From Crossaster papposus (taxonomy: Eukaryota; Echinodermata; Asteroidea; Velatida; Solasteridae), in the NCBI GenBank assembly GCA_037893245.1, contig JBAIAA010000780.1:372001-436000 (forward strand): a stretch of DNA of 64,000 nt, written 5' to 3'. Below the pieces are notes generated by a model. That model saw only the letters and a program-made list of their open reading frames with translations, was not told the DNA's origin and did no database searches. Below, in pieces: positions 3,001 to 59,559 of this stretch (the first letter of the stretch is position 1; each line of letters begins with the position of its first letter). A program made the translations under genes and the position numbers.

Positions 3001-4934
3001 GTCTCAGTTGCAGCGGTTGAAACATCTAGAGAAGCTTACATTACATCGCTGTGGTTTAGGCATACATGATGTGAAACGCATTGCAGCATCAGTTGGATCT
3101 ATGCACAATCTTGTAAAGTGTAGTATTGATGGTTTCTTCCAGATGGACAAACTCGATAGAGGCGTCAGGCTGATGCTCTCGATGCGGCCAGTCACTGGTT
3201 CTGATGTGGCAGATATTTTGAAGGCCATGGCTAATCGTAACGACTTAGTTGAAGTTTCATTTACGCAAATTTCCAATCTGAGCGGCACAGCAGCTAAATG
3301 GTCACTTGCATTACGTGACCTGAAACATCTTGAAAAGCTTCGTGTTACACACTGCAAATTAATAGGCATAGACATTAAGCACATTGCTGCATCGCTTAGT
3401 GACACGCCCACTTTGGTTGAACTGGATCTGTCAGGAAATGAATCTCTGGGTGACTCAGGTGTGTCATGGTCTCAGTTACAGCGGTTGAAACATCTAGAGA
3501 AGCTCGAACTAGATCACTGTGGTTTAGGCATACATGATGTGGAACTCATTGCAGCATCAGCTGGATGTATACAATCTTGTACAGTGTAGTATTGGTGTTT
3601 TCTTCCAGATAGGCAAACTTGATAAAGGCATCAGGCTGTTGATCTCGAGTGAGCAGGTCACTGGTTCCATTGTGGCAGATATTTTAAAGGCCATGTATAA
3701 TCGTAACGACATAGTTGAAGTGTCATTTGTGAGCATTTCCGGTCTGAGCGGCACAGCAGCTGAATGGTCACTTGCATTACGTGACCTGAAACATCTTGAA
3801 AAGCTTTGTGTTACATACTGCTCGTTAATAGGCACAGACATTGAGCACATTGCTGCATCGCTTAGTGACACGCCCTCTTTGGTTGAACTGGATCTGTCTG
3901 GAATTAAATCCCTGGATGACTCAGGTGCATGGGTTCATTTAAAGAGCCTGAAACTACTTCAGAAACTGTCCTTAAGGTCTTGTTATTTGACACGTCAAGA
4001 CATAGAACACATTGCATCACTTAGTGCTTTACCTAATCTGATTAAACTGGATCTGTCTGACAACCAAACCCTGAGTGGCTGCGGTGCGTGGTCACATTTA
4101 AAGAGCATAAAACAGCTTCAGAAACTGTCCTTAAGGTGTTGCTCTTTGACACGTCAAGACATAGAAGACATTGCATCACTGAATGATGTACCTACTTTGA
4201 TTAAACTGGATCTGTCTGGAAACGAAACTCTGAGTGGCTCTGGTGCGTGGTCGCATTTAAAGAGCATAAAACAGCTTCAGAAACTGTCCTTAAGGTGTTG
4301 CTCTTTGACACGTCAAGACATAGAAGGCATTGCATCACTGAATGATGTACTTACTTTGATTAAACTGGATCTGTCTGGAAACGAAACTCTGAGTGGCTCC
4401 GGTGCGTGGTCGCATTTAAAGAGCATAAAACAGCTTTAGAAACTGTCCGTAAGGTGTTGCTCTTTGACACGCCAAAACATAGAAGACATTGCATCACTGA
4501 ATGATGTACCTACTTTGATTAAACTGGATCTGTTTGGAAACGAAACTCTGAATGGCTCCGGTGCGTGGTCATGTTTATAAAGCCTGAAACAGCTTCAGAA
4601 GCTGCCCTCATGGTCTTGCTCTTCGACTAAACAAGACATCGGGCATATTGCATCACTGATAAGCGACATACCCAAGGTAGTAGAACTGGATCTTTATTTT
4701 AATAAATCCCTTGCCGGCTCAGGAGCGTGGTCTCATCTTAAGCATATGAAACACATGAAGACGTTGGTGTTAACAAACTGTGGCTTGATGACTGCAGATA
4801 TTGAGTGCATTGCTGCATCACTGAGTGGCATGGCGAATCTAATAAAGCTAGACCTGTCGGGAAACTATTTCTCTGACCCATCTGTAACGGCTTTGATGCT
4901 ACGACCGAATCTGGACATCCGAGTTGATTGGTAG
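1..4934 (+). pseudogene. NACHT-LRR (NLR) family paralog, LRR part only, broken; 5' part lies outside the window
   Basis: This is the leucine-rich-repeat half of an NLR, closely matching 53360-56781 at nucleotide level. The upstream NACHT portion would lie left of position 1. The long reading frame 5-3589 carries repeated LRR motifs of the form L..L.L..C.L...D...IAA and LVELDLSGN. A 2-nt deletion near 3570 (GTATACAATC where the intact copy has GTATGCACAATC) shifts the frame. Reading resumes in another frame from 3534 to 4439, where CAG has become TAG (4437-4439). A second TAA at 4578-4580 is shared with the right copy, after which the same frame stays open to the terminal TAG at 4932-4934. LRR regions of NLRs normally serve as ligand-sensing or autoinhibitory surfaces. 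I infer a pseudogene, or at best a C-terminally truncated receptor ending at 3589. The reading is strong for identity and moderate for loss of function. Confidence 0.85.
1290..3760 (+). repeat. Higher-order LRR repeat, six ~470-bp units
   Basis: The phrase encoding ADILKAMANRN recurs at about 1321, 1792, 2272, 2742, 3211 and 3675, a spacing of 465-480 bp. Each unit encodes about 156-160 residues containing several LRRs (GLSGTAAEWSLALRDLKHLE, CSLIGTDIEHIAASLSDTP, LVELDLSGNESLGGSG, then CGLGIHDVKLIAASAGCMHN). The right paralog has only three such units (about 54737-55700). The difference accounts for most of the 1.5-kb length gap between the two LRR regions. Confidence 0.85.
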
Positions 4935-7942: not shown

Positions 7943-7994
7943 GTTTTTTTGTCGGAGGGTATTGGAAATATGCCGTTTAGGTTTTTGTAATGTT

Positions 7995-9590: not shown

Positions 9591-9596
9591 TTTATG

Positions 9597-38850: not shown

Positions 38851-38856
38851 TTTCAG

Positions 38857-38992: not shown

Positions 38993-39185
38993 GTAAGAAC
39001 ATTTCTGCCGATCAAAAACAAAGTGTGTAAAATATTACTCAGTGTCAATAATTATGAGCGTTTTTCCTTCAATGTTTAGGGATTGAGGTGCGGGTTTTTA
39101 CATCAAAGGTTTAATCAAGATAGTTGGTGGCACAAACAATAACATAACTCTATCTGCCTTGCTTTCACTTGGATGTATAGAACTG

Positions 39186-39477
39186 CAGGCCTGTGTTACA
39201 ACTGATAATAGTAACCAGCGGATAATGTATCACCGACCGGTGATGTCGCACAAATTGGCCGATACTAACAATTGACTGGTGTACTACACTATCGGGTTAT
39301 TCTTATTACATTATCGGTCCTTATCGATAATGTAACATAAATTGACCGATAGTGTAGTAACAGTTACTGCACTGTCGGTCATTTTGGTTGTTAGTGATAC
39401 ACTATCGGGTAATTTGTGTGATATCGGTTGGTGATTATCCGTTGATTACTAATACTATATCAGTTGTAACAGGCCTG
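39186..39477. mobile_element. Foldback element with ~85-bp inverted arms
   Basis: Begins CAGGCCTGTGTTACAACTG and ends CAGTTGTAACAGGCCTG. Internal ATAATG/CACTATCGG motifs mirror each other around about 39330. It lies just upstream of the first well-supported coding exon of the UBL-NLR gene and could affect its promoter. Confidence 0.7.
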
Positions 39478-39540
39478 TTTGCTTTTACACATTCAATGAC
39501 AAAAATCGTGTACCTTTGTCCTTTGAGAAATCCTTTGCAG

Positions 39541-39883
39541 ACTCTGATGACGTAAAAAACACACCTAAAAACAAAATGAAATTGAAGATGCTCTTGACTC
39601 ATAATAATCTCTATGTACTCCTAGATGCTCAATTGGTATCTGTTTGTCTTAAGGGTGAATTCCTGGTACCTTTGATGACCCTCGCAGACTTGGAGGAAGC
39701 CAAGATGGCAGCGCGGGTCATGAACGATCACTCGCTGGCTAAGATGGTCACACGAAAAAGAAAGATTCCAACGTCTAGAAAGACGATATTTATGTCTGTG
39801 CTTTCTTGGAAGAAGTTGGAGGATACGTCTTCATCACCACCGTGTAACCTGAAAGAATCTTTACTTGAGGGAACTCAATGCAG
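39541..39883 (+). CDS. First well-supported exon; N-terminal segment of unknown fold
   Basis: Preceded by CTTTGCAG and followed by CAG|GTAGTT. It encodes about 114 residues, including MKLKMLLTHNNLYVLLDAQL, VPLMTLADLEEAKMAARVM and the basic patch TRKRKIPTSRK. The exon ends in phase 2, which exactly fits the single base that opens the UBL1 exon (40223). A regular helix/strand mix suggests a folded region, but I recognise no domain. The upstream start is unresolved. Confidence 0.55.
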
Positions 39884-42800
39884 GTAGTTATATAATAGCT
39901 TCTTGGTGTTTGGTATGATCCCGATATGACCCGAATTGTGGTAAATATATAAGTTACGCCCGACCTGCAAACATACAAAAGTGACACTAAAAGCTAATTA
40001 TAATAGTGTCGACTGTCGACAATTTTTCAATCCCACCCTAACCCTAACTATGGGGAAATCTATACAACTTAATTGCGTAAACATATTGCTTCTTCATCTA
40101 CATGTATATTAAACGTGGCCCAGTTAAACAGGATATAGTGTAAATTGCCCCCGAGTCTTTGAGTAGAACCTCTTTAAACTATCACATCAAGTCACTCTCC
40201 TTGTTGCATTTTCATCACACAGTGAGATCCAGCTGTTCGTAAGAAGCTCTTTGAGATCCACACTGTGCCTGCAACTACATCCATCCACCACTGTCTCAGG
40301 CTTGAAAGGATTACTACAAGAACAACTGAAGATTGAACCAGAAAATCAGCATCTTTTCACAAAGAGACACCGTGAGGTAATGCTGAACTTCGCACAATGT
40401 TCATTGTCATCTGTGTGTGTCCCCTCCCCCCCACACACACACCACCTTCCCTTAGTGTACTCTTCTATTGTGCCAGGGTTACCCAGGTGTATTTTATTGT
40501 TTCACTGATAGTCCTGTGCACATTTTCACGAACAAACATCTCTATTATTTGTTAGCTTCGCGATGGAGCCTCACTAAAGGACCACGGGATTGTTCAAGAT
40601 TCCAAGGTTGACTTACGCCTAGCGTCTGAATTGGTGGATGGAAGTGATCAACGCAAATCAACAGGTAAAGTCTGTGGATAGATTCATGTCGTGCATATTA
40701 TTAGGCCTGTACAGGTTGATTTGTTGAGCTGATCAACACATCAACATATAAGTCTGTATACAGGTGGCCCCCAAAACGGACAAGCACCTCCACCGCCCCG
40801 AGGCCAAAACAACCTATACCAATACATGGAGAATCCTTCTGGAAGAAAAATGATACCAAGAAATCCCGATTCGGTCTAGTATATGTTTATCTTGTTAGTA
40901 TTTGTATTCCAGAAAGATTTCCCATTCATTATACAATTTGATTAGGCCACCCTGTATAGGGTTATGTACATTACATCTGGGTTTTATAGGCGTAGTTAAT
41001 TGTCTTACCTTTCACGACTCGATCTATAGGAAACGAAACAAGAAGACGAAAGATAAAGGCAGGCTACAAATCGTCATCTGAAGAGGAAGACAATACTCTT
41101 AATTTGAGTCATAAAGATGACGTGAACTCCAATCACTCGGGGGATCCAGCTACCTATTCAACAAGTGGAGTCTCAAACAGCAACCAATCAAAGGGTAAAA
41201 CCCATATAGCCTTGATACATTTCCATTATGTAGTCCATTTGTGTTTAATAATTTGGTTGATGAAATTTTTCAGACCTATACAGTTAGAGGAAAGGGAAAG
41301 GTTAGGACGAAAACAGAAATATGTTGACAGGAAACTGTCATCACCTGAAATAGCTGAAGGAAAATCAAAGCTTTCTGACGGGGATTTCAAGAGAAATCGG
41401 ATGGTTTGAGCGTCGAGCGATTCTAACACACAATCATCACCCGCTGCAACACTCCAACATCCCATACCTATATATCGCTGTGGATTCTAAACCTCCCACA
41501 ATCACCCTAAGCATCTGTTATCTTTGTTTGATTCCTCATAATTCCCCTCATTACAGAAGACACTAAACTACATACATCTTCAGGTGGTGGAAGTCAAGAT
41601 CCATCGGATGACTCTGGCTGCTCATCCACCTCTGCAGCAAAACATGGTAAACAAAATACCTGTATTCTTATTTGCCTGTTACATTTGGTTTAAATTCACA
41701 ACTCATCGGAAAGTACTCTTTCATTTTGTTGTTTAAAAAGACCCAAACTCATCTCGGTGCATACCAAGTGAACTATAAACTTGCTCACTTTGTTACTTAC
41801 TCTCTATGATTAATATCCGGCAGCTACAAAGAGAACAAGAAGAAGACGGAGAAAAGTAAGAGGAAAATCTCCATCTGATGAATCACATGGACAAACTTCC
41901 TCGAGTGATGAAAACAAAACGGAGACAGGAGAGTTGTCTACCTCCTCAGGGGTTGAAGCCGCCAGTAATCAATCTAAGTCTGGTAATTAACTCCAACTTC
42001 TCGTTACATTTCAGTATCTGCATTTCGATCAATTATCGAATGACTTATCGAATGACTTCGGTAACTGCACCGAGACTGTTGCGTTGGTGTATTTGCTCGC
42101 ATATCTCAAGATCCGATGTATGCTAACGAATACGATCAAGCGAAGGCTTTTGGAATGTTGATGTTTTTAAGGATTGTTGTTGTTTGTTCAGGGAGAAAAA
42201 TAAAAAGACAAAGAAAAGCTGCCAAGAAAACCCCATCTAAAGAAGTAGAAAAAGAAGAAGTCCATGATAATACAAGCAGCATTGATAAAGAACCAGAGGT
42301 ATCAGATGACTCAAGCGATTTCGCTGCCTTCCCGTCACCCACTGTCATCGCAAAAGGTAACGTCTTCTCATTCTGGTAGTATAACTAACTTGGGTAAGTG
42401 GTGGGATGCCTTGATTGAGTACACTAACATACAAAAATCATAAAAGCTAGTTGTAACGCCGTTATTAAAATGTGTTACTTACTCTCTATGATTAATAATA
42501 TCCGGCAGCTAAAAGGAGAACAAGAAGAAGACGGAGAAAAGTAAGAGGAAAATCTCCGTCTGATGAATCACGTGGACAAACTCCCTCAAGTGATGAAGAC
42601 AAAACGGAGACGGGAGAGTTGTCTACCTCTTCAGGAGTTGAAGCCGCCGGTATTCAATCTAAGTCTGGTATTAACTCCAACTTTTCGTTACGTTTCAGTA
42701 TCTGCATTTCGATCAATTTTCGAATGACTTCAGTGATTGTTTAGCCTGATCTTGAAAAATAAAACAGATTTTGATGATCTTCTAAGTGGACAAACAAAAC

Positions 42801-45800
42801 TGGCGGGGGCTGAATTTGAACCTGCGACCTCTGGATTACCGTACCAGCGCTCCCTGCCAACTGAGTTATCTTGCTCTATATTGGCGATCTCCCAAATTGT
42901 CAGTGTCCCTGTTCAGGGCCACTATAGTGGAAGGTTTTGTAAAATATTGCCGTTGAATGCGATGAACATGGCAAGCTGTCTTTAAAACACCGTTTGAGAC
43001 CTTACTGAATGGAGAGTTTTTCAGAGAAAAAAGATTTGAAGGTTTAAAAATATGTATTTTAAAGAAGGGGCTAGCGTAAAGCCAAATGTCATCCGATCAA
43101 TGAGAGCAACTGCACAAAGACTGTTGCGTTCGGGTATTTGCTCGCATATCTCAAGATCCGATGTATGCTAACGAATACGATCAAGCGAAGGCTTTTGGAA
43201 TGTTGATGTTTTTAAGGATTGTTGTTGTTTGTTCAGGGAGAAAAATAAAAAGACGAAGAAAAGCTGCCAAGAAATCCCCATCTAAAGAAGCAGAAGAAGA
43301 AGAAGTCCATGATAACACAAGCAGGATTGATATAGAACCAGAGGTCTCGGATGACTCAAGCGATTCCTCTGCCTTCCCGTCACCCACTGTCATCACAAAA
43401 GGTAACCTCTTCTCATTCTGATAGTCTAACTAACTTGGGTAAGTGGTGGGATGCCTTGATTAAGTACACTTCATACACAAATCATGAAAGTTAGTTGTAA
43501 CGCCGTTATTAAAATGTGTTACTTACTCTCTATGATTAATAATATCCGGCAGCTAAAAGGGGAACAAGAAGACGAAGAAAAGTAAGAGGAAAATCTCCGT
43601 CTGATGAATCACGTGGACAAACTCCCTCAAGTGATGAAGACAAAACGGAGACGGGAGAGTTGTCTACCTCTTCAGGAGTTGAAGCCGCCAGTAATCAATC
43701 TAAGTCTGGTATTAACTCCAACTTTTCGTTACGTTTCAGTATCTGCATTTCGATCAATTTTCGAATGACTTCAGTGATTGTTTAGCTTGATCTTGAAAAA
43801 TAAAACAGATTTTGATGATCTTCTAAGTCGACAAACAAAACTGGCGGGAGCTGAATTTGAACCTGCGACCTCTGGAATACCGTACCAGCGCTCCCTTCCA
43901 ACTGAGTTATCTTGCTCTGTATTGGCGATCTCCCAAATTGTCAATGTCCCTGTTCAGGGCCACTATAGTCGGAAGGTTCTGTAAAAAATTGCCGTTGAAT
44001 TCGATGAACATGGCAAGCTGTCTTTAAAACACCGTTTGAGACCTTATTGAATGGAAAGTTTTTCAGAGAAAGAGATTTGAAGGTTTAAAAATATGTATTA
44101 TAAAGAAGGGGCTAGCGTAAAGCCAAATGTCATCCGATCAATGAGAGCAACCTCAAGATCCGATGTATGCTAACGAATACGATCAAGCGAAGGCTTTTGG
44201 AATGTTAATGCTTTTAAGGATTGTTGTTGTTGTTTGTTCAGGGAAAACAAGAAGAAGACGAAGAAAAGCTGCCAAGAAATCCCCATCTTAAGAAGCAGAA
44301 GAAGAAGAAGAAGTCCATGATAACACAAGTAGGATTGATGAAGAGCAAGAGGTCTCAGATGACTTAAGCGATTCCGCTGCCTTCCCGTCACCAGCTGTCA
44401 TCGCAAAAGGTAACGTCTTCTCATTCTCATAGTCTAACTAACTTGGGTAAGTGGTGTGATGCCTTGATTGAGTACACTTCATACAAAAATGATGAAAGCT
44501 AGTTGTAAAATCGTTATTAATACTATATACGCTTACTCTTTATTGGATTGTTAGGGAATTCAAGAGAATTCACTGGCAAGGAATCAACGAAGAGGAGGAG
44601 GAGTAAAACAGGACACAGACAAGTTAACAAGAAAATATATTCTGAGAGAAATAAAAGCCAGGATAACGAGATGCAAGATAAGTCAGATGGCTGCGGTGAT
44701 TCCGTCACCCTCTCGGGAGTTAACACATTTGATAGAACCTCGGCAGGGAAAATACAAACAACGAAAAAGGAAAAGGCACTGACAGACAAGAAGAACGCAG
44801 GGAGGACACAAAAACAAAAAGGGAAACGTTTCAAGAAATCTCAATCTGAAGCAGATATCACTGGTAGGACGAGTCTCGGTGTCGAAAAGCAATCTTTTGT
44901 TGTATACTTGGGATTAGTTTGACAGTAGTCTTGTTTAATTGGTGAGAATCTTGATAAAAAATGTCTTTATTTCATTCCTCTTCAGAGAGAGGCCAAAGGT
45001 CAAGCAAGAAAGATAATGATTTGCGGTTGACGGGAAAAAGAAGTAGCACAGCTCACAAAAAATGCCCATCTGACGAGGCAGCATTAAATAGAAAGCCAAG
45101 CTTGGATGATAAAGAGCACGAGAAGCTAGGTATAATCTGATTGATAGTAGCTATAAAAATGGTTATGATTCCAGAGTATTGGTGATTGAAAGTAAATTAG
45201 ATTTTTGTTTTGTCGTAGGGAGAAGGAAAACCAAATCTGCAAGAAATGTCAGTCATGCATCTTCATGTGAGAAGCAAGCCAGCTGTCCTACTTCCCAGAG
45301 TGATGAAAATCTGAGCTCGGATGATCGTAGGAACACCTTGAATTCCTTAGCAGTCAAGACTAGCGCTACTGAGCCACCAAAAACTGGTAAAAAACGTTTG
45401 TTGATTGGTTGATTTATTTTCAGTTGTTAAATTCGTTAATTTCATGCAGACCGGACTCACAACAAGTCCAATTTTGTATGTGTATTTACAGAAAGAACAC
45501 GGAAGAGCTTGCCGAAAAGGGTTTCAAGAACAACAACAAAAGAAAAAAGACGAACTGCCAAGAAATATCGATTTGTTGATGCGGATCCAAGTCTATGTGA
45601 CGAAGATAACGTAAAGTCGAAAGATTCCTCTATCCGCGCGTCAAACGATGAGCAATCCAAATCTGGTAAAATGTTGTTTTACTCGTAATTCCAAATGGGA
45701 TTATTATTTCTCTCTCAATGTTTAATATTAGTGCTTCTTAGCTTGATTAAGGGTGTCCCGTCTTAGGTCTCTTACACCATGTCAGACTCAACAACTTACA

Positions 45801-48800
45801 CTTTCAATGATTTCTTCTCAAGATATATATTCTTTCCTCATTTACTCATATTAGGCCTATATTTGGAATGACATAAAGTATTTGTTGTACTATAAAGTCC
45901 ACAATGCAATGTTTTATTTGAATTCTTTACATTTTTCACAATTTTAGAAGTTAATCCTACTGATAAAGCGTACAGATTTACAAAAACCAAATACACGTAC
46001 ATGTATTAAACGCAGCCGCCTTGGAATCGAATTTGTCCGAACGCGTATCGCGTTATCCTCATAAAAGCCCTCACAAAAGTGATTTATTTCAGGAAACCAA
46101 TTGTCACCTCGACAATAAACTAGACGAACGGAGCTCGAGAGCAAAAAAACAAACAAGATTTGTTGTAACATTGTTGTGGTGCCTTTTAGGATGCCATGCA
46201 GCCTCCCAAAGGCAGGTACCTAGCCAGGAGAAGGATTTTCTCGACAATCTTCAGCTGAAGAAACAGCAAGGGACGGATGATGAAGAGGAAATCAACAAAC
46301 AAGATACGACGACATCGAGTGAGAAACAGAGACTCATGACAGATGGACAAGAATGTACTCAGCCAGAGATCTGCAAAGAACCAAGACAAGAGGCAGGGGC
46401 GGCACAGACACAGACCAATCATCTAGATCGGCCATCAAAGGGAAAACGACAAGTTCCATTAGGTTAATATATTTTGTGATGTGTGACCAGCTCTAGCAAG
46501 ACCCAACACTTGGGGTGAATTTTCAATATTGTTTTTTTTTGTTTCACTGTATTGTACAAACAACAAGCTTTCATTTCAGATATGTTTCAAGAAGTTTGGA
46601 TAAAATCTGCCACGTTATGGTACGTTAACTTTTAAGAATTTGTCTACCAACAGAAACTTTATAGCAACACAATCGGCCAAAGGGAGTTGGGTCTTGAAAC
46701 TATACGCACATTTATTCAGCACACTTAACGTAATTAGAAAAACGAATTTAATTGATGTTGAATATTATTTGTATTTAAGGTAATGGGAAATGCTGAGAAG
46801 CGTCGATTAGGTTTTGTCGGAGACGGTCACATAAATATTTTTCTATGGATGGTAATGGCAATATTCGTATGGATCTATATGCTTGAATTTGGAGCTTATC
46901 TGAAAGCACATTTGTTTGTGTATAATAAAGCTGGCTATCTTATCGGCGTTCAAAAATAATTATCTACGTTTATAGAAAAAACGAATACAAGAAGACAACG
47001 AACAGATTCCGAAACGAAGCCTGCATCTGAAAAGAATGGAAATCACCGAATCCAGCTGTTTGTTAATAGTACTTCGATGGGTCCAATATGTCTGCAAATG
47101 TATCCTTCAACTTTTATCACCATCTTGAATGGAACACTTGAAAACCAACCTGGTGTTGAGTCTGAGAAGCAACAACGGGACCACGAGGTAAAGTAAACTA
47201 AAATTAATGTTCTCATAATGTAATCTATCTAGTAACCACACGCTTGTAGACTTAAAGTTTTGATTAGATAGTCGATTCACTTGATTATTGTTGAAATTTT
47301 CCCTGTCAAGCCTCGTGATGAGACATCGCACAAGGATTATCTGGTCGAGCAGGATGCTAACATAGAGATACACCTGATGTCTGGGTTGATGTGCAGAGGT
47401 GGTGATGAACACAAATCAGCAGGTAAATCTGGATACTAATCTTGTCGTTGCAATGATTGACAGACAACACGCTGGTAATAGGAACTGTCGCAATTCCTAG
47501 CATTACCAAATCGATAGATTATTATTATATTCTGACTAATAATTTTGTTAGTGGTCAAGTTCACTCCAAGAAAACTTAAGCACATATACCTCTCTCCGCA
47601 ACCCCTCTTTGTCTTAACTTGCAGGACGAACACGAAAGACAAGCAGGGCGAAAAAGGTTAGAAGAAAGACTAGGCAAGGAAGAAGACGAACTACCAAGAA
47701 ATATGTTAATCCGGACTCATGTCTGCCTAATAAAGATACAGTGAAGTCAAAGGACTCACCCATCTCCTCACCAATCGATGCCAACGCTACGAAGCAATCT
47801 AAATCAGGTAAAATGTTGTTTCCCTTGCATGCAGTTTCCTCACAGCATGCCAAACGAAGCAAACGCATAAGCTGTTTCCTTTTAGTTTTTTTAAGACTGT
47901 ATTTTCTAAGTTCTCTTTTGGGGAGAATGTAAGTAGTATAAATCAATTCATGCTCGATTCACAATCTTTTAATGACATATTTTTGAAAATAAATTGCTGT
48001 TAATCATTTTTTTAAAGGATGCCATGTGGTCCCCCGTGACCAGGCACCTGCAGGCCGGTTGACGGATTTCAAGGAAAAGTTGAGAAAACAGCAAGATACA
48101 AACGACAGAGAGGAAATAAACCAAGACAATAATATGGAGACATCGCGGGAGCAACATAGACCAATTGATGAACAAGGCTGCAGTCCGCAGACAAAAGACT
48201 GTGGAGTAACAGAGGTCAAAGATAAAGGCTCTCAGCTGACATCCTACAAAGAAGGACAAGGAAAGGACGCACACGGGCGTCGGAAAGAAAATGAGGAAAT
48301 GGTAAAGAACAGCGGTGAGAACTGTAAAGAAGTAGAGACATCATCGCACGAGGAAGAGAAACATGGAGAGGAGCAGACTTGTAATTCAGACGGATCTCAG
48401 GAAGACAAGCAGCAAGGCGTGGTCAGGGAACAGATCTGTAAACAACAGACGCCATCGTCGTCCAAGAAACAGAGATTGGATGGAGAAAACAACCTGGAAC
48501 AGTTTGACGATCTCAGAAGATCCGAAACCGAGAGAGAACAGAGCTGCCTTAATCAAAGGCCCTCCTCTGGGCAAGAAGCACAGAAACAGAAGAAAGCTAA
48601 TCATCAAGATTGTCTATCAAAGGATCTAGTACCGTCAGGTAAAGATACAAGTGTGGGTTTGGAAGTTTCAAAAACCGTTTTGTTCCATTTGCTTGGGATA
48701 AAGGCCATATCATACATTGCCGCTGTACGGCCTTTGAATACATTTCTATTATCTAGTCATTCATTGAGCTGACAGCATATGACTCCAAGTTTATCTCAAG

Positions 48801-51800
48801 AAATACTTTATTTTTTTTTGTTCACAGTAAAAATGAAATATTTTCAAAAACTTAATAAATCTTGTATTGTGCACATTATAGGAAGAACAAAGATGAGAAA
48901 AGAACGAGGATGCACTGCGAGGCAACCGTTCCGTGAAGTTAAGGGAGAACGCCTAATCCAGATTTTTGTGAATACGTTATCGAGTGGACCAATATTATGT
49001 CTTCAAATGCTTCCGTCGACTCTTGTCTTAGCTTTGAAAGAAAAACTTCAAGACCACCTTGGGATTGAACCAGAGAAGCAGCGTCTCATCACCAGACAAC
49101 GCCATGAGGTAATGATCGATTTGCCTAATTCTAATGTTCCTGACATGTTAATCTAGCTAGCTGTAGGGAGGTTTCGCTCTTGAAAAGTTTTGAACGAATC
49201 GTAAGACGAAATGTATCTTTTCAGCTACGCGATGGGGTCCCCCTCCAAGATCAGGCCATTGAGCAAGATGCTAACATCGAGTTACGCCTCGTGCAAGGGT
49301 TGATGGGCGGAGCTGATGATGAACAGAAATCAGCAGGTAAAGTCTATTGCTCGTACCAGCGCCAACGAGGAGCTTACGATCGGCTTATATATACAATGGG
49401 GTTAAGTCAGGCGTTTCACTTGTTAGTTGGGAATATTGAAGTCACCAGGCACAACTGTCTTCAAATTGATTGATGGACATTGTTCCACTGAATTTGTTCA
49501 ATCAAAGTGGTCGGAATTTAGTTTAGCTTATAGAACCATTGTAATAACCAACAAGTGATTTTTTAATCTCAAATACATCACACCTCGTTATATCGATGGC
49601 ATGCTTCGTTTACCTGCTTTCTAATGGGAGCTTAATGGATCTCGTCCCATCTGGCTGAGGCTGGCTCCCATAGCGTGAGAAAGCGTGACGTCATTATGCT
49701 TCAATTGGACTTGCAGTAGCAGAAACTCTTGTGAACTAATCTAGAGTATAGACCAACCAGCTGCGTTCATACCTTTACCTTACCTTCAGGGAATTCACAA
49801 AAGGGGACCGACAAGGATCCAAGGACAAGAAAGGACAATGAACTGAAGGCCAGTGATCATCACGCACACATTCCTAAGCAAGACAAACGGACAACGGCAG
49901 AGGTCAGAAAGCATGACCAACAAAGTGTCCTGACGTTACCCGATGAGCAACAGAGATTGGGAGAGAAGCAGCTGGAGGATTTGAGACCCACCTCTGTCCA
50001 ACCCAAGACTCGGTCAGCACATGAAGCAGGGCAACACAGCTCCCAAGAAGAGGTGGTATCATCAACTAACGAGCCAGAAAGACTGGCACAGAGGCAGGGT
50101 CAGGAACCTGAGAGAGTGGGCAAGGAGAATCGATCACAAGAAAATAGCCAAGGTGAAGGCTCGTTCAGGAGTATAATCAATCGTAATGATTTGTTTTATT
50201 CGGCGGAGTGTAACATAGGTCTAGGTTAACCAACACCAAAACCATTCTGTGTTTAAACGTGATTTGTTTCTATTCTCTAAAAGCACTGAATTCGTATCTC
50301 TTCACGTTCAAGTTGACACAATAGAGTGAGAGGCCAAATGATTACCGAGTGTAAAGGTTTCCTATATCCATTACAAAACTTGTTCTCTTTTTCCTTTTCA
50401 CCGACCTGTTTCGTTTTCGCTGTGTATCTCCATAATTTTAATATGTCTGTATCTTTGCAATTACAATGTTTGTGTCTTCATAATTATGTCTGTATCTTTG
50501 CAATTACAATTTGTTATCAATTCGTATATGCTATTTTCTGCACAGTTCGAGATATGGTACCCGCAGCGTTCCATCCAGCCATGCAGCATCCGTCTACTGT
50601 GTGTACTCATAATTCGTCTGGTTCCCTTCTTCAACCTGCTGGACCAATAAGAGACGTCACTGTCGATGGGATGTGCAATCCTACCTTTTTCGCTCCATCT
50701 ACCGGGCACACTTTCCATTACGAATACACACAACAAAATGTTACCATCCAGGCAGCCACCCCAGGTAAAGTTGTTTCTGTTCTTGGTGTCCGTATACGTC
50801 GAGCCTATAGGAATATAAATCTATTACAGGTATATACACTGCAAAAACTGTTGAATTTGAGTAACGCCCCCCACCCCCCAAAAAAAATATAAAAAAAAAA
50901 TTATAATAATAATAATAAATTAATTAAAAAAATTAATTAAAAAAATAAAGATAAATTAAAAAAATAAAGATAAATAAAAAACTCTCATTGTGAAGACATA
51001 TCTTTGTTCTCGAGTACAACATTCCTAGTTAAAAAAGAAAAACCTGTGGAGACCTACTAATCTATTGAAATATACCCTGTGGAGACCTTTTCACTACCAT
51101 TGTCCCCATTGTGCTCAGGTCTCCACAAGGTATCGAATTTAGAATCACCATCTAAAGCCAAACTACATATACCAATCAATGGAGAATTGTTCTAGAAGAA
51201 AAATGATACCAAGAAATCCTGATTTGGTCCTGTAGTTTTAGTTCCAGACCACATATCTTAATACGTGTATCATTTTTCTTCCAGAAAGACACCGTTTATG
51301 GGCCTCATTTCAGCGGAAGCACGCTTTGTCCGGCTTTTATTTTATTTTTTTAATAAATATCGAACAGTGTTAAATTTACACCACAGTTTTTGCAGGGTAG
51401 GCCTGCCATTATTTAAAAACAAAATACGGTATTGAAAGCAAGGATGCCTCAAAAGTGCCCTGTACAATGCAGCTTTGTAAAGCAAGAAGAAACCTGCAGA
51501 GAAGACAATGAGAAGAATGACAAGGCAGTATAAAGATTTAGAGGTGGGAGAAAAAAAACCAGAAGAATTTCTAGGTAAAACCCACTTATTCAGGCAGGGA
51601 CTGAAAAACCAATCCACATTAGTGGCCCAGGCTGGATTCGAACCAGGGTCACAGCGGGAAGAACTGCTACGCCAACCTGCCTCTCATGATCAATTAATTA
51701 AGGGTTCACTATTTGGAAACAATTTAAACATCACTGAGATTTAGTAATGCAGATACCTTTAGATTTTGAGATCCTGCCAATTCAGATCCTGAATTGAACA

Positions 51801-54800
51801 TCAAATTTGGCATCGTTTTATTATTTAAACGCCGAGAACTATTGCGTTTTCATTTCAAATGTGACATAATCTTAGTTCTTTTCCAACCAACTTTCAACAT
51901 CTTGTAATACTTCCCGACCTATTTCCAGGAATAACTCTGTATTATTTTGCTATTTCAACAGGAGGCATGATAAACAATCAACCCTGTGCACAACACGTCC
52001 AACCTGAGGTATGTAGTCAATCGACAAGAAGCAGACAGGACACCAGACCAGCCACCGCTGCCGTAGCAGACAATGCAGCGGATCTATGTGAAGAGGCGCT
52101 AAGGAAGAAGTACGCGACCACTGGCAGTTACGTGCAAGCTACTCCGTGGATTGATGATGATATGATTGATATTGCGAAAATATACACTAATTTACGGTTA
52201 GTTAGTGATGATGATGATGATGATGATGAACGAGGAAAGGGGTCGAACGATGGAAAGGGGAAGGAGGTATTGTATGAGGAAACCCTCGTGAAAAAAAAGA
52301 ATGGTTATGTTATCAATCGTATAATTTACAATGGATGGGCAGGTATGGGAAAAACAACACTAATATTTAAGATTGCGTACGACTGGGCCCTTGGTGCTTG
52401 CGAAACAACTAAGAAGTATAAACTTGTTTTTGTTCTAAAGATGAGCGAACTTGATCAAGAGTCGAAGTTTATTGCCTCTCTTTTTGATCAACTTATTGAC
52501 AAAAACGAGATCGACAAGAACCATCTTAAAACGTACATTTTCAAGAATGCTAAAAAGGTGCTTCTTCTTCTCGATGGCTTCGATGAATTGATGACAACCA
52601 ACCTCGAGAGGAATTCATTCGGCTCGATCCTCAAAATCCTCAATCGGGGAATCGGACCAAATATTGATGTCGTCATAACCACCCGTCCCTCCCATTTATC
52701 CACTTTGGTCAGCAAATCACTGATTCAAAAACCTTACACACATGTGAAAGTTCTTGGGTTCTTTGAAAAGGACATAAAGGATTTTGTGAGCAAATTCTTC
52801 CACAAGAAACTCAAGGATGCTCAGGCCCTTTTCAAAAAAATTCAATCTTCAAACGTCTTGCTTGATTTATCGCATAGCCCAATGTTGTTGCTCCTAATAT
52901 GCTTATTATGGAGACAATATTCCACACTGCCAGAAACACTATCGCGATTGTACAGAAAAGCTGTACGATATATATTCAAAAGAAAAGGTGTACCACAGGA
53001 GGAAATCCCGAATATTGTTGTAGCAATCGGAAAAGTTGCCTTAAACGGCCTTATATCTCCAGTGCAGCGGCTTTCATTTCAAGAAAAAGAGTTTGAGAAG
53101 ATTTCGCTTGATATAGCCTTGAAGGCTGGCATACTCACAAGGCAGCGAGTCATGAAAGGGTTAGACACTGATAACAGTGTACAGTTTATCCACAAAACAG
53201 TTCAAGAATTTTGTGCTGCTCGTTATCTCCAACGCTTACTACACGATACAAACGCTGGGGAATTCAAGAAAATTCTTGATAAACTCAATGACCTTCGTAG
53301 GTTTCGCTACATTTTACGTTTTTGCTGTGGTGACAATGAAGCATGCACGGAACATGTCTTAGCGATGTTGCAACATGACACTGTTATCGAAACTGCGTGG
53401 GAAGAGGCAGCGAGTAGGAGTCCCGCTGGTTTATATTCGCACAAATTGATTCCCACAGTGGAAGTTGCAGAGAAGTCGGGTCGTGCTCTCTCATACCCGA
53501 GGAACGACTGCGAGGTTCGCATAAGCACGAAGACCGAAATAAGCAGCAGGAGGACGAAAGCGTTGAAATTTGCCCTGACATGCTACTTTGAAAGTCGGGC
53601 AAAAAAACTTTTATTGACATTTGTAAATTCAGTTGTTACTGATTCAATTGATATTACATATTTCAGAAGTGATGACATCATCAATTTCGTTTGGTTTCTG
53701 AAGCATGTTGCTGACCAGTCCAAGAACATTCAGGATAAGCCACTCGCCAAAGTTAAGGAAATGACATTTGAATCGTGTACCTTAAAGGAAGGGTGTTGTA
53801 AAGATTTATTCAATGTTATGGCGACATTAACAAGTCTGACTGTTGTTCGGATGATCGGATGCTTCTTAACTTCTAGCAGTACGAAGGTCATCATCTCACA
53901 ATTAGGCAAGACCGCTAATCACGTGACTGAACTGCACCTATCAAAGTGTCATGGTTTAACGGATTATGTGCACTTGTGGATGCCGCTTGTGAATAAAACT
54001 CATCTACAGAAGCTAGATTTAGATAACTGTTGGTTAAATAACGACGATGTTAAGAGCATTGCGTTATTACTGGGTGATATGCCCAATTTGGTGCAATTAA
54101 ACATTCAGGGTTGTCCAGGATTGAATATGGTCGTGGTGCATGAAGACAGTAAACAGCTGCAATTGTGCTGCATGGTGTTATCTGCTTCAGAACTGATGCT
54201 TATTTTAAAGACAATGAGCAACAGAGGAAATTCAGCGTTGTTGGGTCGTGTACTGCCTGGTAGGAAGGTCTTGAGTAAACTGTGTGTTGAAGGAATCAAG
54301 AGTCTGGGTGGAAAAGCAGTCATATGGTCATCACAAGTCAAGGAACTGAAGAGCCTTAAGCAGTTGACAATACAAGACTGCTCATTACAGACGGGGGATA
54401 TTGAACACATTGCTGCTTCATTAGAAGACACGTCTTGCATATGCAAACTGGATTTGTCTGGAAATGAATCTCTATCAGGCTCAGACTGGTCTAAGTTACA
54501 GTGCCTAAAACAACTGAAGCAGCTCACATTAGATCGGTGTGGTTTAGGCATCAATGATGTGAAACACATTGCAGTATTAGTTGGCTGCATGCCAAATCTT
54601 GCGCAGTTTAGGATCGATAATTTCTTTTGTGTAGAAATAATCGATAATAGAGGGGTGAGGATGAAACTCTCGAAGCTGGAAAACCTCGATAGAGGCGTCG
54701 GGATGACGCTCTCGGCGGCGCCCGGGGTCACTGGTTCCAATGTGGCAGATATTTTGAAGGCCATGGCTAATCGTAACGACATAGTTGAAGTGTCATTTAC

Positions 54801-56427
54801 GCGTATTTCCAATTTGAGCGGCACAGCAGCTAAATGGTCACTTGCATTACGTGACCTGAAACATCTTGAAAAGTTGTGTGTTATAAACTGCTCATTAATA
54901 GGCACAGCCATTGAACGCATTGCTGCATCGCTTAGTGACATGCCCAATTTAGTTGAACTGGATCTGTCGGGAAATAAATCTCTGGGTGGCTCAGGTGTGT
55001 TATGGCCTCAGTTACAGCGGTTGAAACATCTAGAGAAGCTCACATTAGATGACTGTGGTTTAGGCATACATGATGTGAAACACATTGCAGCATCAGCTGG
55101 ATGTATGCACAAAATTGTACAGTGTAGTATTGATGATTTCTTCCAGATGAAAAAACTCGATAGAGGCGTCAGTATGACGCTCTCGGTGCTGCCGGTCATT
55201 GGTTCTGATGTGGCAGATATTTTGAAGGCCATGGCTAATCGTAACGACATAGTTAAAGTGTCATTTGAGAGCATTTTCGGTCTGAGCGGCACAGCAGCTG
55301 AATGGTCACTTGCATTACGTGACCTGAAACATCTTGAAAAGTTATGTGTTATAAACTGCTCATTAATAGGCACAGACATTGAGCACATTGTTGCATCGCT
55401 TAGTGACACGACCAATTTGGTTAAACTGGATCTGTATGGAAATGAATCTCTGGGTGGCTCAGGTGCTTCATGGCCTCGGTTACAGCGGTTGAAACATCTA
55501 GAGAAGCTCACATTAGATGACTGTGGTTTAGGCATACATGATGTGAAACTCATTGCAGCATCAGCTGGATGTATGCACAATCTTGTACAGTGTAGTATTG
55601 GTGTTTTCTTCCAGATTGAAAAACTTGATAAAGGCATCAGGCTGTTGATCTCGAGGGAGCAGGTCACTGGTTCCATTGTGGCAGATATTTTAAAGGCCAT
55701 GGCTAATCGTAACGACATAGTTGAAGTGTCATTTGTGAGCATTTCCGGTCTGAGCGGCACAGCAGCTGAATGGTCACTTGCATTACGTGACCTGAAACAT
55801 CTTGAAAAGCTTTGTGTTACATACTGCTCATTAATAGGCACAGACATTGAGCACATTGCTGCATCGCTTAGTGACACGCCCTCTTTGGTTGAACTGGATC
55901 TGTCTGGAATTAAATCTCTGGATGACTCAGGTGCATGGGTTCATTTAAAGAGCCTGAAACTACTTCAGAAACTGTCCTTAAGGTCTTGCTATTTGACACG
56001 TCAAGACATAGAACACATTGCATCACTGAGTGCTTTACCTAATCTGATTAAACTGAATCTGTCTGACAACCAAACCCTGAGTGGTTCCGGTGCGTGGTCA
56101 CACTTAAAGAACATAAAACAGCTTCAGAAACTGTCCTTAAGGTGTTGCTCTTTGACACGTCAAGACATAGAAGACATTGCATCACTGAAGGATGTACCTA
56201 CTTTGATTAAACTGGATCTGTCTGGAAACGAAACTCTGAGTGGCTCCGGTGCGTGGTCGCATTTAAAGAGCATAAAACAGCTTCAGAAGCTGTCCTTAAG
56301 GTCTTGCTCTTTGACACGTCAAGACATAGAAGACATTGCATCACTAAAGGATGTACCTACTTTGATTAAACTGGATCTGTCTGGAAACGAAACTCTGAAT
56401 GGCTCCGGTGCGTGGTCATGTTTATAA
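39541..56427 (+). CDS. Multi-exon NLR with three ubiquitin-like domains, disordered linkers, NACHT and LRRs
   Basis: Exons inferred from GT-AG sites and phase: 39541-39883, 40223-40376, 40556-40664, 41030-41194, 41557-41646, 41824-41982, 42192-42356, 42509-42667, 43237-43401, 43553-43708, 44242-44409, 44555-44863, 44986-45129, 45219-45386, 45492-45665, 46190-46462, 46976-47187, 47311-47422, 47625-47807, 48018-48638, 48882-49108, 49225-49336, 49790-50152, 50546-50764, 51962-56427. Phases agree at every junction, giving about 3,137 residues; the only internal stop is TAA 44289-44291 in a skippable exon. Order: unknown N-terminal segment, UBL1, many basic/acidic linkers, UBL2, linkers, UBL3, linkers, pre-NACHT, NACHT, LRRs. 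NLRs are usually cytosolic sensors that oligomerise through NACHT. UBLs typically bind ubiquitin receptors, ligases or the proteasome, so a link from sensing to ubiquitin signalling is an inference. The start codon, and whether all exons join one transcript, are uncertain. Confidence 0.75.
40223..40664 (+). CDS. UBL domain 1 (two exons)
   Basis: The first exon (40223-40376) encodes EIQLFVRSSLRSTLCLQL, the TTVSGLKGLLQEQLKIEPEN helix and FTKRHRE. The second (40556-40664) continues LRDGASLKDHGIVQDSKVDL then RLASEL. This tracks the ubiquitin fold: strand 1 IQ(I/L)FV, strand 2, helix with the K.K.Q...GI.P..Q pattern, then L.DG.tL.D..I and a last strand. The intron sits in phase 0 between RHRE and LRDG. 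There is no terminal Gly-Gly for conjugation (ELVDGS instead), so it would act as a built-in UBL rather than a modifier. Confidence 0.8.
40764..40930 (+). other. Possible alternative 3' exon overlapping a MITE arm
   Basis: After ATACAG (ends 40763) an in-phase stretch encodes GGPQNGQAPPPPRGQNN and stops at TAG 40877-40879. The distal part (AAAAATGATACCAAG, then TTCCAGAAAGATTTCCC) is a MITE arm related to 7720-7942. If spliced it would give a short UBL1-only protein. It may equally be mobile-element noise inside the intron. Confidence 0.25.
41030..41194 (+). CDS. Phase-1 linker exon (basic then acidic/Ser-rich)
   Basis: It begins NETRRRKIKAGYKSSSEEED and ends SNSNQSKG. At 165 nt it is a symmetric phase 1-1 exon directly following UBL1. 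The basic cluster followed by acidic Ser-rich sequence is the archetype for the linker exons up to 45665. Predicted disordered, with possible nuclear-localisation character from RRRK. Confidence 0.65.
41276..41409 (+). pseudogene. Probable degenerate linker exon
   Basis: After a CAGTTAG acceptor-like site the phase-1 frame encodes ERERLGRKQKYVDRKLSSP and SKLSDGDFKRNRMV, then TGA (41407-41409). Beyond it ASSDSNTQSSPA continues the composition. No in-phase donor was found. It resembles the neighbouring linker exons but appears decayed and outside the main splice chain. Confidence 0.4.
41557..41646 (+). CDS. Small phase-1 linker exon
   Basis: A 90-nt symmetric exon (ATTACAG|...CATG|GTAAAC) encoding EDTKLHTSSGGGSQDPSDDS and CSSTSAAKH. 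Ser/Asp-rich and presumably disordered. It can be included or skipped without a frame change. Confidence 0.55.
41824..41982 (+). CDS. Arg-rich linker exon, type B
   Basis: Acceptor CCGGCAG, donor TCTG|GTAATT. It encodes KRTRRRRRKVRGKSPSDES, then TETGELSTSSGVEA and SNQSKS. Close copies are 42509-42667 and 43553-43708. The RRRRRK run is a strong candidate nuclear-localisation or nucleic-acid-binding patch. Confidence 0.65.
42192..42356 (+). CDS. Lys/Arg-rich linker exon, type A, copy 1
   Basis: TTCAG|GG...AAAAG|GTAACG, 165 nt, phase 1-1. It encodes RKIKRQRKAAKKTPSKEVEK, then an acidic part with VSDDSSDFAAFPSPTV. Copies follow at 43237 and 44242. Confidence 0.65.
42509..42667 (+). CDS. Arg-rich linker exon, type B, copy 2
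   Basis: CGGCAG|CT...TCTG|GTATTA, 159 nt, phase 1-1. It encodes KRRTRRRRRKVRGKSPSDES and GQTPSSDEDKTETGEL. Nearly identical to 41824-41982 and 43553-43708. Confidence 0.65.
42755..42990 (-). mobile_element. tRNA-derived SINE (second family), copy 1
   Basis: On the minus strand an A box TAACTCAGTTGG (complement of 42857-42868) and a B box GGTTCAAATTC (complement of 42812-42822) have tRNA-like spacing. It was copied with the tandem block and recurs at 43795-44010. It lies in an intron of the UBL-NLR gene. Confidence 0.65.
43237..43401 (+). CDS. Lys/Arg-rich linker exon, type A, copy 2
   Basis: 165 nt, phase 1-1. It encodes RKIKRRRKAAKKSPSKEAEE, an acidic stretch and VSDDSSDSSAFPSPTV. It is intact, unlike copy 3. 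Confidence 0.65.
43553..43708 (+). CDS. Arg-rich linker exon, type B, copy 3
   Basis: 156 nt, phase 1-1, one codon shorter than its sister at 42509 (an Arg codon lost in the Arg run). Flanked by CGGCAG and TCTG|GTATTA. Confidence 0.65.
43795..44010 (-). mobile_element. tRNA-derived SINE (second family), copy 2
   Basis: Same boxes as 42755-42990 (B box complement at 43853-43863, A box complement near 43898-43909) and the same flanks. It arose by the local tandem duplication, not by independent insertion. Confidence 0.65.
44242..44409 (+). pseudogene. Linker exon type A, copy 3, with an in-frame stop
   Basis: The splice sites are intact (TTCAG|GG and AAAAG|GTAACG) and the exon is 168 nt, phase 1-1. 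AAA in the sister copies has become TAA (44289-44291). Inclusion would end the protein after UBL1 and the first linkers. Skipping would keep the frame. It could be a decaying exon or a poison exon. Confidence 0.65.
44555..45386 (+). CDS. Three linker exons (44555-44863, 44986-45129, 45219-45386)
   Basis: All are phase 1-1 with good acceptor and donor sites. The first encodes 103 residues rich in Lys, Thr and Gln (ESTKRRRSKTGHRQVNKK, then RTQKQKGKRFKKSQSEADI). The second contains GQRSSKKDNDLRLTGKRSS. The third contains RRKTKSARNVSHASSCEKQ then SDENLSSDDRRNTLNS. The composition is basic and Ser-rich with no hydrophobic core, so they are probably disordered spacers between UBL1 and UBL2. Confidence 0.6.
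45492..47422 (+). CDS. Four-exon module 1: basic linker, Gln/Glu-rich linker, UBL domain 2
   Basis: Exon 45492-45665 encodes ERTRKSLPKRVSRTTTKEKR and DEDNVKSKDSS. Exon 46190-46462 begins CHAASQRQVPSQEKDFLDNL and is Gln/Glu/Lys-rich. Exons 46976-47187 and 47311-47422 form UBL2: a basic lead, HRIQLFVNSTSMGPICLQMY, a helix region FITILNGTLENQPGVESEKQ, then PRDETSHKDYLVEQDANIEI and HLMSGLMCRGG. UBL2 is the most diverged of the three: the helix lacks the Lys pair and the turn is PRDE instead of LRDG. The block is duplicated as module 2 (47625-49336). Confidence 0.7.
47625..49336 (+). CDS. Four-exon module 2: basic linker, long Gln/Glu-rich linker, UBL domain 3
   Basis: Exon 47625-47807 (RTRKTSRAKKVRRKTRQGRR then DTVKSKDSPISS) is a paralog of 45492-45665. 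Exon 48018-48638 (starts CHVVPRDQAPAG, 207 codons, with Glu/Gln/Lys and SSKKQRLDGENN) is a longer paralog of 46190-46462. Exons 48882-49108 and 49225-49336 form UBL3, the closest to ubiquitin: LIQIFVNTLSSGPILCLQML, the helix VLALKEKLQDHLGIEPEKQR, LITRQRHE, then LRDGVPLQDQAIEQDANIEL and RLVQGLMGG. The Gly-Gly lies inside the chain and is followed by ADDEQKSAG, so conjugation is not implied. Confidence 0.75.
49790..50764 (+). CDS. Two linker exons before the NACHT exon (49790-50152, 50546-50764)
   Basis: The first (121 codons) is polar: DKDPRTRKDNELKASDHHAH, then DEQQRLGEKQLEDLRPTS. The second (73 codons) differs in being hydrophobic and aromatic with Pro/His/Cys: RDMVPAAFHPAMQHPSTVCT, DVTVDGMCNPTFFAPSTGH, then YTQQNVTIQAATP. 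It could form a small beta-rich segment. Both are phase 1-1 and join in frame to 51962. Confidence 0.6.
50765..51961 (+). other. Large last intron with MITE and SINE
   Basis: GTAAAG donor at 50765 and TTTCAACAG acceptor ending at 51961. It contains an AT-rich tract (50880-50985), a foldback-like MITE (about 51190-51290: AGAAAAATGATACCAAG ... TATCATTTTTCTTCCAG) and an inverted SINE (51430-51690). Confidence 0.6.
51430..51690 (-). mobile_element. tRNA-derived SINE (same family as 17491)
   Basis: On the minus strand the A box TGGCGTAGCAG (complement of 51664-51674) and B box GGTTCGAATCC (complement of 51634-51644) are followed by TTTTTCAGTCCCTGCCTGA and TTCTTCTGGTTTTTT, matching the body of 17491-17760. 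It lies in the last intron of the UBL-NLR gene. Confidence 0.8.
51962..56427 (+). CDS. NACHT-LRR exon of the UBL-NLR gene
   Basis: Counting from the ATG at 51967, residues ~45-80 form a pre-NACHT segment (YVQATPWIDDDMIDIAKIYT) followed by an Asp run. Walker A is GWAGMGKTT at 123-131 and Walker B VLLLLDGFDEL at 198-208. Downstream NACHT features include VVITTRPSHL and SPMLLLLICLLW, then a winged-helix-like region with VQFIHKTVQEFCAARYL. LRRs start near residue 600 and include three ~156-residue super-units and several ~55-residue LRR units (SLRCCSLTRQDIEDIASL, TLIKLDLSGNETLSGSG). The exon opens in phase 1 after CAACAG and continues the upstream frame. It could also initiate at 51967 as a shorter NLR. 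TAA at 56425-56427 ends the frame, but the same frame continues open to 56781. Confidence 0.85.
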
Positions 56428-56781
56428 AGCCTAAAACAGCTTCAGAAGCTGTCCTCAAGGTGTTGCTCTTTGACTAAACAAGACATCGGGTATATTGCAT
56501 CACTGATAAGCGACATACCCAAGCTAGTAGAACTGGATCTTTCTTTTAATAGATCCCTTGCCGGCTCAGGTGCGTGGTCTCATCTTAAGCACATGAAACA
56601 CATGAAGACGTTGGTGTTAACAAACTGTGGCTTGATGACTGCAGATATTGAGTACATTGCTGCATCACTGAGTGGCATGGCGAATCTAATAAAGCTAGAC
56701 CTGTCGGGAAACTATTTATCTGACCCTTCTGTAACTGCTTTGATGCTACGACCGAATCTGGACATCCGAGTTGATTGGTAG
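56428..56781 (+). CDS. In-frame LRR extension beyond the shared TAA
   Basis: Immediately after the TAA the same frame runs without a stop to TAG 56779-56781, encoding further canonical LRRs (LVELDLSFNRSLAGSGAW, LVLTNCGLMTADIEYIAASL, LIKLDLSGNYLSDPSVTALM) and a typical C-terminal cap. Repeat comparison shows AAG in sister units where TAA stands here (TTA TAA AGC against TTA AAG AGC). The left paralog has the same TAA (4578-4580) and the same open continuation. It may be 3' untranslated relic, readthrough product, or removed by splicing or editing. Undecided. Confidence 0.5.
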   Translation, partial: SLKQLQKLSSRCCSLTKQDIGYIASLISDIPKLVELDLSFNRSLAGSGAWSHLKHMKHMKTLVLTNCGLMTADIEYIAASLSGMANLIKLDLSGNYLSDPSVTALMLRPNLDIRVDW

Positions 56782-56979
56782 TAATTTGAAAGCGATAAAT
56801 TTTGACGTGGTTTTCAACAACTAAACTTACATTAAAAAATACCTAAGAGAGTTGAAATGTTTTGATTGGTCGAGACTCGATTACGTGGAGGGCATTATCA
56901 CGCAGTAATTGCCCCGGCTTTCAAACATTGAAGTTAATTCCCTGTTTATTCCCTAAATAAAAAGGTATTTATTAAAGAG

Positions 56980-59513: not shown

Positions 59514-59559
59514 TTTTTTGTCGGAGGGTACTGGAGATATGCCGTTTAGGTTTTTGTAA

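Follow-up and report, generated by a model that had tools for sequence, protein, structure and literature searches.

The window analysed here is a stretch of 64,000 nucleotides (C780:372001-436000) from the genome of Crossaster papposus (1.02 Gb, 1841 contigs), and its forward strand very probably carries a single gene that runs from a first coding exon near 39705 through three modules resembling ubiquitin (ubiquitin-like domains, UBLs) and their linker exons to a NACHT-LRR exon at 51962..56427. This last exon (+ strand) has a phase-1 acceptor, ends at an in-frame stop and matches the NACHT family (PF05729, 6.2e-27; 94.9 bits against a Pfam cut-off of 26.7), with GWAGMGKTT as Walker A and LLLLDGFDEL as Walker B motif, as well as several LRR families, among them LRR_4 (66.3 bits) and LRR_8 (40.8 bits). 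Past this stop the LRRs go on in frame (56428..56781, +), as judged from frame and LRR matches, and the C-terminus has probably been lost from the window copy. No Pfam match to a Death, CARD, PYD or BIR domain was obtained in the 9 + 5 window proteins scanned, a set that takes in part of the linker exons, and tblastn with two Death queries at E 0.01 found no Death domain in the window.

For comparison we used a set of nine copies, comprising the window copy, two more on C780 and six on C248; an additional half-UBL exon at C248:2106341 lies outside this set. At the intron sites the window copy is 97.2% identical to the copy at C248:1947967, other pairs reaching 91-96%, which suggests that the C780 and C248 copies may in part be alleles; should C248 represent the second haplotype of C780, the nine copies could come down to as few as six loci. 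Selection was assessed from collapsed counts, in which every alternative codon seen among the nine copies enters a single time, and for the initial 939 bases of the NACHT exon this gave 43.2 synonymous versus 98.8 nonsynonymous changes (ratio 0.61, p 0.0068), a p value that, like all those below, is a guide only, because the nine copies are related and two are possibly alleles.

The locus is part of a tandem array, and the window spans parts of two successive units about 52-53 kb apart (1-10770 and 53361-63159). The LRR end of the upstream tandem paralog, whose NACHT lies at C780:370961, occupies 2..4931 (+), with breaks in the LRR frame near 3586 and 4436. Each of the two NLR copies is followed by a minisatellite-like tandem repeat, open in several frames (9542-10001 and 61743-62381), and at 32872-34848 a 659-aa frame resembles, by eye, a non-LTR reverse transcriptase. 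Elsewhere in the assembly, contig C1841 bears a mitochondrial COX1 whose natural reading is by genetic code 9 (AAA as Asn, for instance in LFSTNHKDIG and GGFGNWL, AGA as Ser, ATA as Ile and TGA as Trp), with a probable ND4L frame between COX1 and COX2; both are typical echinoderm features. Contig C8 (at least 5.2 Mb) encodes at C8:5208663-5210009 (L034) a quinol oxidase subunit I closest to a bacterial bo3 oxidase (1e-232), and is probably derived from a bacterial symbiont or a contaminant.

Exon 1 and linker exons

The probable first coding exon (39705..39883, +; MAARVMNDHSLAKMVTRKRK...) ends in a phase-2 donor, and its ATG, open frame and donor GT are each present in 9/9 copies. The ATG at 39705, embedded in the context GCCAAGATGG in 8/9, is the likely coding start. 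The start at 39541 in the first-pass annotation is rejected, and the sequence there is probably non-coding, because three of the nine copies carry two additional nucleotides just upstream of about 39650; no upstream coding exon ending in phase 1 passed the filter at 37311-39620. Collapsed counts for exon 1 are not significant (ratio 0.54, p 0.2), and they do not support the strong constraint indicated by the pairwise pN/pS of 0.15 against the window copy. Exon 1 resembles a stretch in a distant paralog, L033 (48% over 29 aa, E 2e-04), in which the exon-1-like exon has, by eye, a phase-2 donor before its UBL.

The linker exons, all on the + strand, fill the space between the UBLs and before the NACHT exon. 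After the first UBL comes an exon at 41030..41194 (phase 1-1, basic and then acidic/Ser-rich), whose splice sites and open frame are kept in 9/9 copies, with the reservation that it was filtered by conservation. It is followed at 41824..44409 by tandemly duplicated K/R-rich and S/D/E-rich linker exons (repeat families D3-D12, most boundaries by eye), the duplicated stretch at 41791-44520 being marked by KRRRRK-type basic stretches and then acidic/Ser-rich ones. Three phase 1-1 exons at 45219-45386, 45492-45665 and 46190-46462 have splice sites in 9/9 copies and show no significant constraint by collapsed counts across the nine copies, whereas constraint is seen in the exon at 47625..47807 (RTRKTSRAKKVRRKTRQGRRR..; p 0.00047) and in the long charged exon at 48018..48638 (p 1.2e-05), which is without a Pfam match; both have splice sites in 9/9. 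Likewise conserved at their splice sites (9/9) are two further phase 1-1 exons, at 49790..50152 and, directly before the NACHT exon, at 50546..50764 (VRDMVPAAFHPAM..). This pre-NACHT exon resembles, by eye only, the stretch VQDIVPAGRHQL.. that follows Death in the sister gene L028, and tblastn with that L028 stretch gave no match to the pre-NACHT exon in the window at E 0.01. Finally, an exon at 41584-41646, with bounds set by eye, was left out of the splice counts and the parts list; it had been scored with its start one base off (acceptors 0/9, open 5/9).

The ubiquitin-like modules

The exon starts proposed for the three UBLs in the first-pass annotation (40223/40556, 46976/47311 and 48882/49225) fit real exon boundaries, and AG and GT at the UBL boundaries are present in 9/9 copies. 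A phase-0 intron divides each UBL into two halves, of which the second ends in phase 1. UBL1 (+) consists of a first half at 40223..40376, ending ..RHRE before the phase-0 donor, and a second half at 40556..40664 (LRDGASLKD..) with a phase-1 donor, both with splice sites in 9/9 copies. In UBL2 (+), the first half (46976..47187, splice sites 9/9) is degenerate and several residues short before the intron, and the second half (47311..47422) has splice sites taken from the nine-copy alignment. UBL3 (+) has a first half at 48882..49108, which ends ..RQRHE before the phase-0 donor, and a second half at 49225..49336 with the tail GLMGGADDEQKSA, in which GLMGGADDE is present in 9/9 copies; all 37/37 residues of this second half are identical at C419.

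When the halves are joined, UBL1 and UBL3 score 33.2 and 35.3 bits against PF00240, each over profile positions 1-69 of 72 (cut-off 25.4), whereas joined UBL2 has no Pfam match at E up to 1. Among PDB sequences, the first matches of UBL1, UBL3 (by phmmer) and the UBL of L028 are ubiquitin, and from these matches we infer a beta-grasp fold for the UBLs. Alone, the first-half exons reach 19.3 to 27.6 bits against the cut-off of 25.4, and since the exons are short and split, ordinary annotation could miss such UBLs. The collapsed counts separate the modules in the same way, with 22 synonymous versus 12 nonsynonymous changes in UBL1 (ratio 0.17, p 4.2e-07), 18 versus 18 in UBL3 (ratio 0.29, p 0.00025) and 8.5 versus 37.5 in UBL2 (ratio 1.22, p 0.81), so that purifying selection acts on UBL1 and UBL3 and not on UBL2. 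The earlier claim of three UBLs thus holds for UBL1 and UBL3, which match Pfam ubiquitin, and is too high as a count of functional domains, since UBL2, degenerate and without constraint, has decayed and probably serves as a spacer.

Genome-wide pairing of UBL and NACHT exons

When the genome was searched with the Pfam ubiquitin profile, 150 of 248 candidates were scored, and the 110 whose match ended at profile position 41-43, the place of the UBL phase-0 intron, were taken as the half-UBL set; the 40 that were dropped include polyubiquitin, full-length and second-half matches. NACHT exons were represented by 100 of 422 candidates, all over the Pfam cut-off. At least 43 of these 100 scored exons, on 11 contigs, have a half-UBL exon on the same strand within 20 kb upstream, and outside the C780/C248 clusters this is true of at least 34 of 91, on 9 further contigs. 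Among the matches listed, none of the 100 has an antisense half-UBL within 20 kb, and at least seven have one downstream at up to the same distance, which is what tandem arrays would produce. Within 10 kb, at least 39 of the 100 have an upstream half-UBL and none a listed downstream one; 500 random shifts at this distance gave 2.8 on average and never more than 9. A chance origin is rejected as unlikely, in view of the Pfam scores of the joined halves, the conservation across nine copies and the pairing throughout the genome with its shift control.

Sixty of the 110 half-UBL exons, mostly on C518, C632, C146 and C594, are without a listed NACHT exon within 20 kb downstream. The one locus examined on each of C518 and C146 has a NACHT exon outside the scored 100; the other unpaired half-UBLs viewed were L039-L042 only, where the stretch covered leaves no room for a NACHT exon. 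At the other loci (L028-L033 and L038-L042), 14 first halves were found, 12 of them with a second half, and in 12/12 of these two-half UBLs the halves meet at a phase-0 intron in the same place. The half-UBLs of L039 and L041 lack a second half within the sequence examined, so that not all half-UBL exons are whole UBLs. L041 (C714:624700-626100) contains a UBL3-type first half, and the sequence downstream of it diverges from that of a near-identical relative in L031 ahead of the second half; it is probably an interrupted copy.

Sister architectures

Several of these loci combine UBLs with domains of the Death superfamily, for which Pfam matches were obtained in L028, L032 and L033. L028 (C362) reads Death-Death-UBL-Death-NACHT, each domain over its Pfam cut-off, with the qualification that the first Death runs into a frame change and its match covers profile positions 2-57 of 86; a phase-0 intron lies inside the UBL, and the UBL-Death and Death-NACHT joins are in phase 1. 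L030 resembles L028, and L029 has one more UBL upstream. In L033 (C146), an exon-1-like exon, a UBL with phase-0 intron, a Death domain and a NACHT with LRRs in one frame follow each other, with joins that are in phase by reading, and L032 (C518) carries a UBL, a Death domain, a second UBL, a weak TRADD-like_N match (0.014, below the cut-off) and a NACHT. The UBLs of the nine-copy group occupy the place that Death domains hold in the sister genes examined. Together with the pairing counts, these architectures bear out the proposal of a distinct NLR class, very probably a real and large one in this genome, and the predicted architecture, a large family of NACHT-LRR receptors with UBLs N-terminal to the NACHT, is in our judgement very likely correct.

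Two loci deserve separate mention. At L031 (C419:1595001-1604500), exons of the UBL2/UBL3 type that are near-identical to those of the window lie beside a NACHT of a markedly different class (about 30% identity to that of the window), which suggests an exchange of N-termini between NLR classes. In L032 (C518:485001-495000, 5586-9149), the GKT of Walker A has been lost (GQDAEQTS), yet a frame of 1188 aa is open, and a helper or regulatory pseudo-NTPase class is a possible reading of this gene.

UBL tails and the di-Gly motif

The UBL3 tail reads GLMGG in 9/9 copies and in L031, and GLLGG is found in 7/7 L028-type UBLs and in L033. The di-Gly is thereby kept in 18/18 UBL3-, L028- and L033-type copies with a readable second half, a conservation that is a lead and no proof of function since these 18 copies are related by descent. 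It is absent from UBL1 (9/9) and from the first UBL of both L029 and L032, and the UBL2 tail reads MCRAG in 8/9 copies and MCRGG in the window copy. When RLRGG of ubiquitin is aligned with GLMGG or GLLGG, Arg72 and Arg74 are missing, the C-terminal region is longer and more protein follows, so that neither the Arg at position 72 nor the free C-terminus of a Type I modifier is present in the alignment to the ubiquitin tail. Arg72 of ubiquitin serves E1 recognition. With tails that lack Arg72 and Arg74, E1-type use looks unlikely and a dedicated partner plausible, and with the longer C-terminal region in addition, generic ubiquitin mimicry is not assured. One might also speculate that the di-Gly is a cleavage site and that activation frees or exposes the UBLs as signals, like a built-in ubiquitin chain, an idea that we regard as very unlikely.

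Gene integrity and alternative gene models

The UBL exons and the NACHT-LRR exon very probably belong to one gene, as claimed in the first-pass annotation, and order, phases, conserved splice sites and sister genes all speak for it. The order and strand of exon 1, UBL1, linkers, UBL2, UBL3 and NACHT are identical in 9/9 copies, and 16 acceptors and 16 donors of the gene model are conserved in 9/9, a count in which only the UBL exons and the exon-1 donor form a fair sample, because the linker exons had been picked with a filter of at least 8/9 copies conserved. All joins of the exons in this count are in phase, with phase 2 after exon 1, phase 0 within the UBLs and phase 1 for the remainder, and the phase 1 of the UBL second halves fits the acceptor of the NACHT exon at 51962. 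A fused gene is by far the simplest reading of this arrangement, although the NLR might also have a start of its own, or a short isoform might consist of the UBL part alone. That there might be two neighbouring genes instead, a UBL-repeat gene and then a standalone NLR beginning at an ATG near 51968, we consider very unlikely. An in-frame ATG does open the NACHT exon in 9/9 copies of the nine-copy group, and reading on from the pre-NACHT exon leads to a stop codon, past which polyA-like hexamers lie in an A/T-rich stretch (50914-50973). However, the phases agree across the modelled exons, the NACHT exons of L028 and L033 are without an ATG near their start and are linked to the UBL by an in-phase Death exon, and among the matches listed no UBL-NACHT pair is antisense within 20 kb or has the UBL downstream within 10 kb. 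A separate UBL gene ending before 51962 is likewise made unlikely by the sister genes in which an in-phase Death exon stands between UBL and NACHT.

The state of the window copy itself is a different matter, as it contains two stop codons, one in the last of the duplicated linker exons (44242-44409), which is open in the other 8 of the 9 copies, and one in the LRRs at 56427, which shortens the LRR tail. Together with the broken LRR frames of the upstream copy, these stops are what one would expect of a decaying member of an otherwise working family. On the other hand, the linker exon with the stop has phase 1 at both ends, so that skipping it would not shift the frame, the NACHT-LRR frame is open for 1520 aa, and all six UBL exons are open. 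Decay of this copy is an unlikely reading to which we nevertheless grant some weight; the window copy may be impaired, which says nothing against the class.

Discussion

Given the architecture, we favour, with some reserve, the reading of the locus as a member of a UBL-NLR family whose clustered UBLs recruit adaptors of the ubiquitin pathway. As proposed in the first-pass annotation, the product may be an immune or stress sensor in which oligomerisation of the NACHT would drive ubiquitin-type signalling. Here we speculate that the LRRs would sense a ligand and that the NACHT domains would then assemble into a ring as in NLRC4 and NLRP3, whereby the UBLs, carried on long linkers of basic and acidic charge, would be gathered as the ring forms. 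The gathered UBLs could then present a ready-made ubiquitin-like surface to ubiquitin-binding adaptors or ligases of an innate pathway. This mechanism of recruitment, taken by itself, is tentative, and we give it slightly less than an even chance.

Other functions can be proposed for the same domains. The UBLs might set the stability of the receptor by docking the NLR to the proteasome or to a ligase or DUB, and thus control the level of the sensor and not its signalling. In known proteins, UBLs at the N-terminus are often binding sites for subunits of the proteasome or of DUBs, and the low ratio of UBL1 (0.17), below those of UBL3, UBL2 and the NACHT part, would fit such a role; the multiplication of UBLs and their interleaving with Death domains in the sister genes are left unexplained by it, and we consider it rather unlikely. 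Ubiquitin is also commonly targeted by microbes, and the UBLs might accordingly be an integrated decoy, that is, bait for microbial proteins that attack ubiquitin, similar to the integrated domains of plant NLRs. The occurrence of UBL exons upstream of many NLRs of different classes is in line with a decoy, but UBL1 and UBL3 are conserved and not diversifying, which makes this explanation more doubtful still. The pairing of at least 43 of the 100 scored NACHT exons and the UBL intron common to distant NLR classes suggest that the receptor itself may have ubiquitin-type input or output built into it. The question raised by this arrangement is whether clustering of UBLs driven by the NACHT could start signalling in the ubiquitin pathway with no ligase involved.

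In the usual description, animal NLRs signal through Death-fold domains, and NLRP3 and NLRC4 have a PYD or a CARD at the N-terminus. These two proteins are the closest solved chains to the window NACHT (9.4e-23 and 1.2e-20), which shares with them Walker A and B; they differ from the window gene in that it carries UBLs in place of a PYD or CARD. With ubiquitin and the N-terminal UBL domains of other proteins, the likeness lies in UBL1, UBL3 and the L028 UBL, which exceed the PF00240 cut-off and find ubiquitin first in the PDB, whereas the UBLs of the window are internal to a receptor, have a longer C-terminal region and lack Arg72 and Arg74.

In the full-text literature searched, which mostly does not extend to subscription journals, no description of a UBL-NLR class was found. 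The N-termini reported for NLRs are Death, CARD or Ig in the parts consulted of PMC8913654, PMC11508797 and PMC13133943; ubiquitin is nowhere named in the main text of PMC11508797 and PMC13133943, and it is named twice in that of PMC8913654, whose sections consulted concern a different subject. PMC2575513 has a supplementary table of NACHT partner domains, and the portions of PMC3499355 and PMC4981915 that were covered contain nothing on UBL-NACHT. A likeness is offered by the NLRs of the sponge Dysidea avara, for which a figure of NLR architectures in a 2026 paper (PMC12909245, seen in part) draws UBQ among the domains; the accompanying NLR section, as far as covered, speaks of 'a few cases' of other N-terminal domains and does not say where or how often UBQ occurs in them, how the gene is built or what UBQ does. 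Fusions of polyubiquitin to TRADD-N domains, with domains of the ubiquitin system including Ub-ligase among the fusion partners, have been reported (PMC8195603), and they are similar in being marine animal immune proteins that join ubiquitin-system domains with death-pathway switches. In L032 there is a TRADD-like_N match under the cut-off, and UBL-NACHT-LRR is not described in the part of that paper that was seen. Lastly, large NLR families are known from other echinoderms, with 53 NLRs in the sea cucumber Chiridota heheva, 24 of them with death/DED, and 203 cited for the purple sea urchin (PMC8913654, in part). These Death-NACHT-LRR receptors resemble the family described here in its size and in the Death domains of the sister genes, and they differ in that UBLs are unmentioned in the sections of PMC8913654 consulted, whereas in Crossaster papposus UBL exons lie upstream of many NACHT exons.
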